The notes under the pieces: generated by a model
Told to the model about the DNA's origin: nothing
Database searches by the model: none
What the model saw: the letters and a program-made list of their open reading frames with translations, nothing else
Source of the DNA: Candidatus Omnitrophota bacterium
GTDB lineage: Bacteria; Omnitrophota; JACPQZ01
Direction of reading: 5' to 3'
Assembly (NCBI GenBank): GCA_016190205.1
Contig: JACPQZ010000056.1
Location: 1-5,408 of the forward strand
DNA: 5,408 nt
Program-made: the position numbers and the translations under genes
Part shown: piece by piece, positions 1,804-5,408 of the stretch
How positions within the stretch are numbered: the stretch's first letter is position 1
Layout: every line of letters starts with the position of its first letter

Positions 1804-1873
1804 GCCGAACGTGGCGAATGAGCCGCGCGCCGTCGCTGATCAGCGGCGCGTCGGCTCCATTCGCGTGTTCGGC
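1804..1873 (-). repeat. attC site of cassette 3
   Basis: Plus-strand ends are GCCGAAC (1804-1810) and GTTCGGC (1867-1873). Arms 1814-1832 and 1844-1864 pair along their whole length apart from two extra bases in the second arm, on the R'' side, which fixes the minus orientation. The loop is 11 bases. The R' core read on the minus strand is GTTCGGC, with C where the consensus has a purine. Confidence 0.9.
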
Positions 1874-1877
1874 GGCA

Positions 1878-2447
1878 TCATGTCCCGGCGGGCGAGCCGG
1901 CCCCCGGGCTCGCTGTCGCCTGTTTGAACCTAGCGACCTCTTTCGACCACTGCTTGGTTCGCAACATCTGCAGTAAGCTGACCAGAAGCGCGGCGGCAAC
2001 AACGGCAAGGCCGAGCGTGAGAAGACCAATCTGGTCCTTCGACGACCTGCCGATGTAAACAACCATGCCGGCACTGGCAGCAGCGATCACAGCTCCGACG
2101 AGCAAGTCTATGGCTAGACCATAGGTGGCCCACGTCTTTGAATTTGGATCTGAGCGAAGGCTTGAGAGAGCCCTGTAGCCACCTGCCTGGTCCTCAAGGA
2201 GTGCGGCAGCATCCTGGCACGCGTTGAGGAGCTGACTGTTCCGAAAGTCGAGAATCCAGAACACGACTGACACGAGAGCGGCTCCACCAAAGACGGCTAC
2301 CCGAATGGGAGCGCTCGTATTCTGCGAGAACGCGACACCAAGGGCCGCCAAGACCGTGACATAGCCCGCAAAGATCTTCTCCCGCCACGACGCGAAATGC
2401 CGCCAGATATCGGCTAACTCCTCGTAGAGTTTGGGGTCGTGCTTCAT
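1878..2447 (-). CDS. Four-helix membrane protein of cassette 3
   Basis: The chosen ATG at 2447 has a strong GGAGG five bases upstream and lies just inside the cassette boundary; a longer frame continues upstream only by reading through the attC. The 189-residue product starts with a charged helix containing WRHFASWREK (15-24), then probable membrane helices at about 25-41, 48-66, 109-133 and 140-161. A soluble loop at about 67-106 begins DFRNSQLLNACQDAAALLE. The C-terminus is basic, then ends in a Gly/Ser/Pro tail. Two helix pairs around a cytoplasmic-looking loop, with an amphipathic lead-in, recall small effector membrane domains such as SLATT, but this is a weak layout-based comparison. 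The TGA lies four bases before the R'' core of attC 1804-1873. The function is unknown. Confidence 0.88.
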   Translation of the reverse strand: MKHDPKLYEELADIWRHFASWREKIFAGYVTVLAALGVAFSQNTSAPIRVAVFGGAALVSVVFWILDFRNSQLLNACQDAAALLEDQAGGYRALSSLRSDPNSKTWATYGLAIDLLVGAVIAAASAGMVVYIGRSSKDQIGLLTLGLAVVAAALLVSLLQMLRTKQWSKEVARFKQATASPGAGSPAGT

Positions 2448-2473
2448 GATCTCCTCCCCGTACTCGGGTGTCC

Positions 2474-2536
2474 GCCGAACGGCCATGGTGAGCGGCCGGC
2501 CGCTCTCGGCCGGGCCGCTCGACCATGTTGTTAGGC
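2474..2536 (-). repeat. attC site of cassette 2
   Basis: Plus-strand ends are GCCGAAC (2474-2480) and GTTAGGC (2530-2536). Arms 2484-2501 and 2508-2527 pair with a six-base loop and two extra bases in the second arm, on the R'' side. On the minus strand R'' is GCCTAAC and R' is GTTCGGC. The TAA stop of the preceding gene (2531-2533) lies inside R''. Confidence 0.9.
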
Positions 2537-3124
2537 TGCGCCCCCAGTCTCCTCGATCGCTGCTGCAAACTCTGGGAGTCCGACGCGGGCCAAGTACGCC
2601 GCAAAGCGCTGCGCGATGTCCTCCCGAAAGAGCGGCGCCACCGAGCACACGCACGCAGTTGGTTTAAGTTCTAGGAGGTACTTCACCGTTGCTGAAAAGT
2701 AGTGCTTGAAGTCGATGACCGAGGGTACGATGGGCACGTCATCCTCGAACTCGAGGTAGTGATAGCGCGGCCGTTCGTTGTTGCGGAGGAAGGCGCCTGC
2801 ACTGCGCGTCTTGGGGACTCGCTCCATTTGGATGCCCAGTTCGCTGAGATGCTCACCTTGGTACACGTGCTCAACGTTGTACAGGGGTGCCATGAGGACG
2901 GAGATTAGCCACTTGTCTTGGGTGGAGTGAGCCTCGGTTCGAAACCGGTGGTCCTGTTCCAGGTCGCAGTCCTGAGTCAGGACGATCGCGAGGGGGAAAA
3001 CGATCCGTGCGACCTCGATCAGGCCCGACCCCTCAGCGACATACTCCACCCAGTGGACGTCCCGAAGGATGTCCCCCTGACAGAGCCTAGTCTTGTCTGC
3101 CTTCAGTACCTTTGTCTGCTGCAA
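2531..3124 (-). CDS. Conserved-looking protein with TQDCDLEQD motif, third gene of cassette 2
   Basis: The product is 197 residues from a TTG at 3124. That start is favoured because AAGGGG lies five bases upstream and no ATG occurs nearby. Notable segments are QGDIL (16-20), VFPLAIVLTQDCDLEQDHRF (42-61), a region around APLYNVEHVYQGEHL (79-93), YHYLEFEDD (121-129), VPSVIDFKHYF (133-143) and LFREDIAQRFAAYLARVGLP (165-184). The QGD, TQDCDL and C-terminal LF-RE-RF patterns look like those of an uncharacterised conserved family I have seen but cannot name. Conserved Asp, Cys and His could form a metal or catalytic site, which is inference. It overlaps the linker gene by 38 bases, and its TAA falls inside the attC core. 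Confidence 0.85.
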   Translation of the reverse strand: MQQTKVLKADKTRLCQGDILRDVHWVEYVAEGSGLIEVARIVFPLAIVLTQDCDLEQDHRFRTEAHSTQDKWLISVLMAPLYNVEHVYQGEHLSELGIQMERVPKTRSAGAFLRNNERPRYHYLEFEDDVPIVPSVIDFKHYFSATVKYLLELKPTACVCSVAPLFREDIAQRFAAYLARVGLPEFAAAIEETGGAA

Positions 3125-3278
3125 CAGTGCCCCTTACGATGATGCGGCGCGGTTTGCCGATGCCGTACTTGGCGCTTTGAACTTCATCGGGTTCTGCGGC
3201 TTGGCCCGCAAGAGGTGTTCCAGCCGTTTGAGGCTCGGGAACGTACTCGCCGAACGGATCCTTCTCCTCAGGCGGCAT
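3087..3278 (-). CDS. 63-residue linker protein, second gene of cassette 2
   Basis: ATG at 3278 follows GGGGG about eight bases upstream and overlaps the end of the TIGR04255-type gene by 11 bases. The product is acidic and proline-rich at its start (PPEEKDPFGEYVPEPQ), low in hydrophobic residues, then basic near KYGIGKPRRIIVRG (about 37-50). It is likely disordered with one short structured or nucleic-acid-facing stretch. Its 3' end overlaps the next gene by 38 bases in another frame. It fits a small adaptor or regulatory protein of the three-gene unit, but I recognise no family. Chance is less likely than usual because the two overlaps bridge neighbouring genes with no gap. Confidence 0.6.
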   Translation of the reverse strand: MPPEEKDPFGEYVPEPQTAGTPLAGQAAEPDEVQSAKYGIGKPRRIIVRGTVAADKGTEGRQD

Positions 3279-4035
3279 TCATGATCCCCCGGAGATTGTC
3301 CGTGATGCTCTGCTCGAAATAGCGCTGGATCGTTGTGTGGAAGTCGTCCAGAAGGTGGCTGACCTCTCTGATGTCGACGGCCGAGTGGGTATAGGCGTCG
3401 AGGTCGAGTACAAAGACCTTCTGGCGAATGCGAGCGGGATAGTCGGGGTTGTGCATTCCAAGACGATAGCGAAGATGGAAGGCATCAAACGCCAACTCCA
3501 AGTTGTGGAAGACACGAGAAAGGGCTGGCCGGTCTGCTTCCAGGGGAAACTGAAATAGCGACAGGAGCTGCGGAGCCAGGTAAGCCGACCAGTCAGTAGG
3601 GTTCGCTTCCGCCAACTCGATCGTGTTTACGTAGCGAAGACCCACACGCGACGGTTGAGCGCCCGGGAATAGCTCGGCGACTCGATCGAGAACCCCAAGG
3701 AACTCAGCCTTGACGATCTCGTAGGTGTGGTAGGTCCGATGTTGGACCAGCACGACCTGCCGGCCGATGGTCAGGGTCTTGGTTCGTTCCTTTCCATGAA
3801 AGAGCCATTCCTTGAACCGCTCTTCACTCGACTGAACACCTTGCGGGCCGATCTCCACTGCACGCTGAACCGCCTCGCGTGGTTCCGCAATTGGGAAAGT
3901 GCCCACTGCAACCTCGATAAGCCGTGGTGGAAGTGCAGCTTCCACGCCCGGCAACGGGCTGACGAAGTCAACTCGCGCGATAACCTCTTTGAGGAAGTTC
4001 CTTCGATAGCAGGTCTCCGCAAACGGGTCAGGCAT
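3268..4035 (-). CDS. TIGR04255-type protein, first gene of cassette 2
   Basis: The 255-residue product starts at ATG 4035, six to seven bases after AGGAAAGG and 45 bases inside the cassette; the longer upstream frame crosses the attC and is rejected. Family-like signatures are an N-terminal FLKEVIARVDF (14-24), a central RVGLRYVNTIEL (130-141), FVLDLDAY (208-215) and a C-terminal helix ending HTTIQRYFEQSITDNLRGIMN (233-253). These match my memory of TIGR04255, a sporadically distributed bacterial family without known biochemical function. No membrane segment or signal peptide is visible, so it is probably cytoplasmic. It is the lead gene of an overlapping trio. Patchy distribution and residence in an integron cassette fit an accessory or defence role, which is inference. 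Confidence 0.88.
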   Translation of the reverse strand: MPDPFAETCYRRNFLKEVIARVDFVSPLPGVEAALPPRLIEVAVGTFPIAEPREAVQRAVEIGPQGVQSSEERFKEWLFHGKERTKTLTIGRQVVLVQHRTYHTYEIVKAEFLGVLDRVAELFPGAQPSRVGLRYVNTIELAEANPTDWSAYLAPQLLSLFQFPLEADRPALSRVFHNLELAFDAFHLRYRLGMHNPDYPARIRQKVFVLDLDAYTHSAVDIREVSHLLDDFHTTIQRYFEQSITDNLRGIMNAA

Positions 4036-4074
4036 GTTGCACCTTTCCTCAGTCGCTCCCCTCGTTTTGAAGCA

Positions 4075-4133
4075 GCCTAACGTGAGGCGATTGACCGGCG
4101 CGCTTTTGCGTCCGGTCCAATCGCTGGTTCGGC
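4075..4133 (-). repeat. attC site of cassette 1
   Basis: Plus-strand ends are GCCTAAC (4075-4081) and GTTCGGC (4127-4133). Arms 4087-4098 and 4112-4124 pair perfectly except for one extra base in the second arm, the classical extrahelical base on the R'' side when read on the minus strand. R'' is GCCGAAC and R' is GTTAGGC, a good consensus core. At 59 bases it is a short attC. Confidence 0.93.
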
Positions 4134-4276
4134 ATGAGGCGATAATATGAAGGACCATCACGGTAGAGACATTGTAAGTCCATTAGACGCGCTACCACCA
4201 GTCATTGACTACTCACTTGCGATGCGCCAACTCCACAAGGCGATTGACACATACCTTCTCGATTTACCTCTCACAC
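4134..4276. other. Apparent non-coding tail of cassette 1
   Basis: About 140 bases separate the stop of the cassette 1 gene from its attC. On the minus strand only ORFs of about 15 codons with no good ribosome-binding site are seen. On the plus strand an ATG at 4147 opens a frame that looks fairly protein-like for about 60 codons, but then it runs antisense to the cassette gene and on into the integrase remnant. I see no terminator here. Confidence 0.5.
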
Positions 4277-4561
4277 CTACGCCTGAGAGGGTTTATCTAG
4301 AATCGCTGCGAGCATTTGTTCAAATGGAGTTCCAGCAGCCAAATGACGAACTATCACGGGATGAAGCAACTGCCTCTCGTGTTGAAGGTTTTGTGGGAGG
4401 GGGCAGTTTAAGAATTGGGCAAGTTGGTCAACCCGCTTTGCAAGAGAAGCGACCTGAAAATACAGGAGTAGCATGGCCAGCCTGTTCCAATCACCTTGCG
4501 ACCAAACGGATGCAGGTAGCTGGAGGATGTATTCGACGGCTTCTTCAAGATTGTCGTACAT
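4277..4561 (-). CDS. Small helical protein of unknown function, cassette 1
   Basis: The 94-residue product starts at ATG 4561 behind AGAGAGGTGA, a good ribosome-binding site at the proper distance. It looks all-helical: an acidic first helix (DNLEEAVEYILQL), a WSQGDWNRLAMLLLYFQVASLAKRV region (21-43), then LAQFLNCPLPQN and a final helix GTPFEQMLAAILDKPS. No membrane segment is convincing, though 27-38 is hydrophobic. It uses more A/T-ending codons than genes in the other cassettes. It is the first gene after the attI-like junction and should be best served by the candidate cassette promoter. I do not recognise a family. Confidence 0.75.
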   Translation of the reverse strand: MYDNLEEAVEYILQLPASVWSQGDWNRLAMLLLYFQVASLAKRVDQLAQFLNCPLPQNLQHERQLLHPVIVRHLAAGTPFEQMLAAILDKPSQA

Positions 4562-4701: not shown

Positions 4702-4716
4702 CCCAATGTCATTGGG
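4702..4716. repeat. Perfect 7-base inverted repeat at the integrase stop codon
   Basis: CCCAATG and CATTGGG flank one central base, and the TGA of the integrase remnant (4709-4711) lies at the centre. On the minus strand it is followed by AAAAAT rather than a T-run, so it is not a classical terminator of the remnant. Role unknown. Confidence 0.4.
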
Positions 4717-5035
4717 GTGTTATCCGGTTTCCGTCTATCACCCCCGCGGCCGGGGGAGCCCCCAGGGAATCGACCGGGCTCCGGACGCCCCGTCCTCCCC
4801 GGTTCAGAACATGGGTGTAGACCATGGTGGTCTTGACGTCTTTATGACCGAGCAACTCCTGGATGGCGCGGATATCGTAGCCCGCTTCGAGCAGGTGCGT
4901 GGTCCCGCACAATGCGGGATAAACTCCGGAATCGCGGAAGGTGTGGCAGCTTGTCGGGTTGGCGGTGCAGGCCCAGCGGACGCAGTCGGGGAGCTTGGGC
5001 TGCTCTCGAGCTGCGGGGTGGCTGTTCCCCCTCAT
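4709..5035 (-). pseudogene. intI: C-terminal remnant of integron integrase (tyrosine recombinase)
   Basis: The 108-codon ORF carries the hallmark end of IntI: SCHTFR (29-34), [25 protein letters not shown] (46-70) and [19 protein letters not shown] (71-89), including the HxxR pair (H31, R34), H64 and nucleophile Y73. A full IntI is roughly 320 residues; the N-terminal domain, box I arginine and the IntI-specific segment are absent, and upstream frames do not supply them. The residue after HTFR is D instead of the usual H, and about seven extra residues (GVYPALCG region, 37-45) separate HTFRxS from THLLEAG. ATG 5035 has AGGGAGG six bases upstream, so the fragment may still be translated. It lies on the same strand as the cassettes. 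Activity is very unlikely. Confidence 0.88.
4904..4918. repeat. 15-base palindrome within the integrase insertion
   Basis: CCCGCA and TGCGGG flank a three-base centre, inside the extra segment of the integrase remnant next to the HxxR box. It probably came with whatever caused the insertion or is the scar of a slippage event. Confidence 0.55.
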
Positions 5036-5224
5036 CGAACGCCTCCCTTCAGACGTGCGGATCGTATGACGAACCAATCATTGACGTCAAGGGACATCTT
5101 CGGAGACCCGTGATTGGCAATCAGGCAATCCGGGGTTCCGAGGTGCCGGGCACCCTTGAGTGCACCCGGTGGGCTGGGGACACTGGTACCCTTGGCGTCT
5201 GCGGTTAGGAGTATCCGAGCGTGA
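5036..5224. other. Spacer between regulator and integrase remnant, no gene seen
   Basis: About 190 bases separate the regulator's natural stop from the remnant's ATG. No frame resembles missing IntI sequence, so the integrase was cut by deletion or rearrangement rather than by a simple frameshift. Minor structures are GGTGCCCGGCACC and GATTGGCAATC palindromes; neither is followed by a T-run. Confidence 0.5.
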
Positions 5225-5408
5225 TCAGCCGTCGATTCCGAAGCGCTTCAGGCGGGTGTAAAGTTAAGAGCGGGTGGTTCCGAGGATCTTCGCGGCCTGG
5301 GACTTGTTCCATCGGGTCTTGTTGAGGACGTCGAGCACGATGCATTTTTCCCATTCGGGAAGGGACTGGCTCGATGGGGATTCCGGCGCGACGGTCTGTC
5401 TGCCTCCA
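5225..5408 (-). pseudogene. C-terminal end of an NtrC-family regulator with a premature stop
   Basis: From the right edge the frame reads a Fis-type (HTH_8) DNA-binding domain: SLPEWEKCIVLDVLNKTRWNKSQAAKILGTTRS, then TAA (5264-5266), then LYTRLKRFGIDG and a natural TGA (5225-5227) in the same frame. This arrangement is typical of the end of sigma-54-dependent activators of the NtrC family. The in-frame stop removes the last 12 residues plus one, including most of the recognition helix, so DNA binding should be lost. A single change from a serine TCA, or from AAA, CAA or GAA, would create it. It could also be a sequencing error. The first 47 codons are in the window and the rest of the gene is outside it. 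Confidence 0.8.

Follow-up and report, generated by a model that had tools for sequence, protein, structure and literature searches.

TIGR04255 proteins head a conserved three-gene operon, here designated T-M-X, in which the TIGR04255 gene (T) is followed by a gene for a small middle protein (M) and by a third gene (X) that varies between loci and includes members of several toxin families. The operon was examined starting from a window of 5,408 bases, the entire contig JACPQZ010000056.1 of a 1.65-Mb Candidatus Omnitrophota genome (GCA_016190205.1), where X is a protein that we designate Q. Gene order and sequence relationships lead us to consider, at slightly better than even odds (probability of about 0.55), that T-M-X is a tripartite toxin-antitoxin-like module with M as the antitoxin and T as a helper. 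A toxin-antitoxin-like nature was absent from the earlier note on this DNA; it is the variable third gene that points to it.

One integron cassette carries T, M, and Q

Because attC-like sites flank the trio on both sides, T, M, and Q are one cassette (Table 1), attC-type sites bounding the unit at either end as in integron cassettes generally. The R′ box (GTTAGGC) of the site upstream of T is the start of the three-gene cassette, and the TAA stop codon of Q falls within the GCCTAAC box of the site at its 3′ end. A stricter attC scan gave five sites across 541 kb of T loci, the pair flanking the trio among them, and none in 308 kb of shuffled sequence. T and M overlap by 11 bases (3268 to 3278) and M and Q by 38 bases (3087 to 3124), so that coordinates and attC sites agree with the earlier note's description of an overlapping three-gene unit within a single cassette. 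No promoter or terminator was found by scanning window positions 2400 to 4400. The GC content of the contig is 58%, compared to 56 to 59% in the other contigs sampled.

The integron integrase remnant and the cassettes share one strand; in the usual integron layout, the integrase is divergent from the cassettes. In the next cassette, the product is a probable membrane protein whose similarity to SLATT, a domain type that occurs in defence effectors, is very weak (E 0.11). The array also contains another probable two-gene unit. One of its genes encodes a 101-residue protein weakly like the PADLOC candidate PDC-S32 (E 0.001); the overlapping gene encodes a membrane protein for which the CARF_2M match is weak (E 0.0097). 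At the contig end, the frames resemble a broken C-terminal Fis-type helix-turn-helix (EWEKCIVLDVLNKTRWNKSQAAKILG).

TABLE 1 Features of the 5,408-base window, with strand and basis of each assignment
Feature	Position	Strand	Description
Three-gene cassette	2474–4081 (ends approximate)	−	attC recombination points on either side plus gene content
T	3268–4035	−	255 aa, TIGR04255 family; first gene of the operon
M	3087–3278	−	63 aa; N-terminal part hydrophilic; conserved C-terminal motif YGxGKPRRIIxRxx
Q	2531–3124	−	197 aa, TTG start, TQDCDLEQD; MazF/CcdB-like predicted fold
attC-like site 3′ of Q	2474–2536	−	GCCGAAC...GTTAGGC
attC-like site upstream of T	4075–4133	−	GCCTAAC...GTTCGGC; part of the preceding cassette
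Third attC-like site	1804–1873		Beyond the pair flanking the trio
Integron integrase remnant	4709–5077	−	TIGR02249 positions 243–315 of 315, C-terminal part only
Next cassette	1878–2486	−	Probable membrane protein
Probable two-gene unit	1471–1776 and 1092–1478	−	See text
Contig end	5205–5408	−	See text

The operon recurs across bacteria, archaea, and viruses

A genome scan with Q retrieved 55 loci from about 19 phyla, archaeal as well as bacterial; Patescibacteria, Planctomycetota, and Bacillota are among them. In nearly all of those with sufficient contig, T was found directly upstream on the same strand with a small ORF in between. T, M, and Q are not chance frames, since relatives of each are arranged in this order in many phyla. 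In a set of 83 distinct T loci, which includes those found via Q and differs from the 83 evaluable loci of the TIGR04255-only sampling described below, 50 were of the Q type, preceded immediately by T and a small M, and the gap between M and X was within 40 bases in 75. The small gene directly precedes and overlaps the putative toxin gene, the gene layout of type II toxin-antitoxin loci. A Methylocystis plasmid (L007:2524-3747), for example, keeps the T-M-Q order, with a middle protein of 70 residues and overlaps of 8 bases. A viral scan with Q yielded one locus, in the viral contig L064, and a viral sequence scan with T gave no match. None of the other T-M-X loci scanned lay between attC sites, and the cassette setting is not the explanation of the trio; neighborhoods were mixed, with restriction-modification, integrase, and housekeeping genes.

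Individual loci showed further features. Upstream of the Methylocystis operon lie two small WGR-domain genes, together with genes for a recombinase and for an annotated abortive infection protein. Close to the end of its record, a Methanobacteriales virus genome (L073:2986-4630) has T together with a middle gene and a HEPN-like gene; the overlaps are of 4 bases. In L042:4069-5486, T and Q are each split into several frames, as in a decaying operon copy.

The M of the window gave no meaningful match in Pfam, NCBIfam, PADLOC, or PHROG, including none to MazE, CcdA, or DUF4065. An iterative HMM located it in place in about 24 loci (E down to 1e-21). In about two dozen Q loci M fits a single profile, which ends in YGxGKPRRIIIRAKI; the M of more distant Q loci is a different small protein of 60 to 150 residues. 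M is under purifying selection where measurable, dN being well below dS in the measurable pairs (for example, 0.58 versus 3.5 and 0.27 versus 2.2, with dS near saturation). The survey hence bears out the three-gene unit of the earlier note: homologs in the same order in many phyla support one conserved unit, the partner and the linker recur beside TIGR04255, and the linker frame is conserved, as seen from the in-place profile matches and the dN/dS comparison.

TIGR04255 was present in roughly 4 to 14% of the genomes in each phylum sample, with a patchy distribution. Such patchiness would suit abortive infection or phage defence, in which T would sense a phage product, M would couple the signal, and X would shut the cell down, as would the plasmid copy beside an abortive infection protein and a recombinase (L007) and the copies in an archaeal virus (L073) and a viral contig (L064). 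The anatomy is also the same as that of CmdTAC, in which the chaperone senses a phage capsid protein and releases the toxin (PMC11618068). On the other side, PADLOC 2.0.0 holds no model matching T, M, or Q, and the neighborhoods are mixed. We therefore regard a defence function as possible at somewhat below even odds; it may be a role of the same tripartite module and not a different anatomy.

X is exchanged among toxin-like families behind a constant T

In a sampling based on TIGR04255 only, comprising four phylum samples with downstream frames judged by eye from ORF tables, 70 of the 83 evaluable T genes were followed by M and X (12/12, 26/27, 15/15, and 17/29 by phylum sample). In the set that includes loci found via Q, an automatic rule requiring two further overlapping or adjacent ORFs was satisfied at 69 of 82 T loci versus 45 of 237 control genes; at least some T loci missed the rule through a wrong automatic ORF choice, M and Q being plainly present there. 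Nine related archaeal T genes (L152 to L158, L160, and L161) have no M-X behind them, and in this group T may have a stand-alone role.

The X classes comprise PemK/MazF, VapC, HEPN, DUF7689, Q and its relatives, and several unnamed families. In the TIGR04255-only samples, PemK/MazF is represented by the X of L090 (PF02452, E 1.1e-18) and of L136, whose best PDB match is an mRNA interferase (2.2e-5); VapC by L004 (VapC20, 1.5e-6); and DUF7689 by L002 (2.5e-35). The HEPN class includes L008, a Thermus plasmid locus found with the T of the window (PF05168, 4.2e-6), profile A9 matched a HEPN structure (1.4e-4), and HEPN-resembling frames, as judged by eye, recur in the archaeal sample. Third genes with an SNTCD motif (L067, L089, L092, and L133) are related to Q by profile comparison (probability 89.9 for A6), several of these loci showing a hydrophobic stretch near the N terminus of the middle gene product. 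Two other assignments were dropped: class c is not claimed as a relative of Q (hhalign probability 1.1), and PDB profile searches gave no support for HicAB in the L006/L068/L069 class.

On a quick tree of T, the X class was strongly clustered, with 17 changes compared to 31.5 after shuffling. The tree groups the X classes together and does not follow host taxonomy, a pattern consistent with horizontal movement of the entire operon, its effector being exchanged now and then.

The C-terminal half of M varies together with X

One such exchange is seen among archaea. The T of L165 is 73 to 77% identical to that of L163, L167, and L174, and its M is homologous to the M of L167 (E 6e-20). The X of the latter three loci matches the Q profile (E about 1e-25; hhalign probability 99.6). 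That of L165 is PemK/MazF-like, by BLAST to L131, L135, and L136 and by its RRPTLVI motif; it had no PDB match at E 0.1. Aligned with the M of the Q-type loci, the M of L165 shares the N-terminal part and differs in the C-terminal half, for which the simplest reading suggested by the alignment is that the N-terminal half of M works with T and the C-terminal half with X. No N-terminal motif common to all M classes was evident by inspection by eye. The M of L091 (class c) has an HTH_3 domain above the Pfam cutoff; that of L090 has no known antitoxin domain.

Variation in the C-terminal half of M according to X, next to a T that stays similar, argues that M carries the toxin specificity, and HTH domains such as that of class c M are common in antitoxins; both observations count against an alternative in which T itself would be the neutralizer, a promiscuous antitoxin with a role like that of Panacea (DUF4065), and M only a bridge adapting T to each toxin. 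This alternative draws on the fact that T alone is common to all classes, with X exchanged among MazF, VapC, HEPN, and others, on the short, largely hydrophilic character of the Q-class M, and on the precedent of Panacea, a single domain reported to neutralize many toxins (PMC8832971). We consider it unlikely.

Predicted structures of Q and T

Q is predicted to belong to the PemK/MazF fold superfamily (MazF/CcdB/Kid fold). Its AlphaFold2 model, built with 51 homologs, had a pLDDT of 94, and all 50 matches listed by Foldseek, as well as all 50 rows listed by VIA-align, were MazF/PemK, CcdB, or Kid toxins, the best VIA row among those listed having a Z of 10.7 and an rmsd of 3.0 Å over 110 residues. 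At the sequence level, neither Q nor the 54 members of alignment A2 matched PF02452 (PemK/MazF) in Pfam, hhalign of Q to the L090 PemK/MazF protein was not significant, a PDB sequence profile search gave nothing credible, and NCBIfam, PADLOC, and PHROG gave no meaningful match; PADLOC on the Q homologs returned weak, scattered matches only. The catalytic residues of MazF are the Arg of the RP motif and a Thr. As read from the motif in alignment A4, Q appears to have FP(Y/L) where MazF has RP and to lack the catalytic threonine. Residues Q51, C53, D54, D138, K140, and R180 are invariant in alignments A2/A4. Q may hence be a toxin whose active site differs from that of MazF, or it may not be a nuclease. 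The apparently replaced RP motif, the distinct invariant set, and the missing PemK match would also fit a catalytically dead MazF/CcdB-fold binding subunit within a regulatory or enzymatic complex, which we find doubtful in that the same T and M families pair with PemK/MazF-type proteins and the invariance of polar residues points to selection on an active or binding site.

By the curated cutoff, T is assigned to TIGR04255 (E 8.7e-31; 107.6 bits against a cutoff of 30; residues 10 to 252 on profile positions 2 to 251 of 252). The NCBIfam name of the family is sporadTIGR04255, and its NCBIfam entry carries no functional description. T had no Pfam match at E 1, hence neither a SecB nor a DUF4065 domain, and a PDB sequence profile search gave nothing credible. 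Its AlphaFold2 model (pLDDT 95.6) showed no clear fold match, and comparison with a viral structure library returned weak or unnamed matches only. Similarities to the guanidino kinase catalytic domain (Z 8.5, rmsd 3.8 Å) and to AdoMetDC were in the range of common arrangements and were discarded.

Proposed mechanism

From these patterns we infer a scheme with a toxic X, its neutralization, a chaperone or sensor role for T, and possibly a trigger. X, here Q with its predicted MazF/CcdB fold, would be the toxic effector. M would be the antitoxin or adaptor, holding the effector through its C-terminal GKPRRIIxR motif and engaging T through its N-terminal part. T would be a shared third component that stabilizes or presents M, like the SecB-like chaperones of toxin-antitoxin-chaperone (TAC) systems, and might also be the sensor of a trigger; X would then be freed if T or M were lost or diverted.

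Several observations weigh against this tripartite module. Q lacks a PemK/MazF sequence match and appears to lack the RP motif and threonine of MazF catalysis, and T lacks a SecB domain or clear fold match. T can exist alone, as about nine related archaeal T genes without M-X indicate, and the L090 M lacks a known antitoxin domain, as the L165 X lacks a PDB match at E 0.1.

A broader proposition, plausible to us but tentative and a little short of an even chance, is that TIGR04255 is the common part of a broad, undescribed tripartite toxin-antitoxin superfamily of bacteria, archaea, and viruses, in which a non-SecB chaperone or sensor, acting through a modular adaptor antitoxin whose N-terminal half would serve T and whose C-terminal half would serve the toxin, would have captured MazF, VapC, HEPN, and several new toxin families, including Q with a new active site. 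The genomic logic of TIGR04255 would predict the function of the family, as the third component of a toxin-antitoxin module. It would also single out the genes next to TIGR04255 as the likely effector and adaptor, with the uncharacterized X families as candidate new toxins. Interest would rise if many toxins proved to have T as their general non-SecB partner.

Comparison with known systems

A search of the open-access literature, with subscription papers and preprints outside its scope, found no paper naming TIGR04255 or IPR026349 and no description of the operon context of TIGR04255, which suggests that T-M-X is an apparently undescribed operon.

The module resembles TAC in having three genes, for a toxin, an antitoxin, and a dedicated third protein, and in that a single kind of third protein works with several toxin families. 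In TAC systems, including the HigBA-SecB-like system of M. tuberculosis, the dedicated chaperone supports the antitoxin via a short region, and the antitoxin regions recognized by the chaperone have no significant sequence similarity (PMC5105189). T-M-X differs in that T, the first gene, encodes a TIGR04255 and not a SecB-like protein, and X includes the MazF-fold Q (as predicted), VapC, and HEPN. TAC membership goes with a SecB-like third protein; because T is not SecB-like by Pfam at E 1 and its fold has no clear match, TAC is an analogy of arrangement and not a membership.

With MazEF/PemIK and CcdAB, the operon shares the predicted fold of Q, the presence of true PemK/MazF proteins in some T operons, and an M gene that lies ahead of X and overlaps it, a common arrangement for antitoxin genes. 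It departs from them in that Q has no PemK sequence similarity and, by motif reading, appears to lack the MazF catalytic motif, that M matches neither MazE nor CcdA, and that a third gene, T, is present.

Panacea (DUF4065)/NetFlax likewise pairs one conserved protein with many toxin families; T, in contrast, has no Pfam domain, and here there are three genes with a middle protein that changes. Searching the text of the NetFlax paper gave no mention of a three-gene or tripartite arrangement.

Integron cassettes mostly contain a single ORF; among those with two, some are toxin-antitoxin pairs (PMC8618304). The present cassette resembles these pairs as a putative toxin-antitoxin-like unit mobile as one attC-bounded cassette, with three ORFs instead of two.
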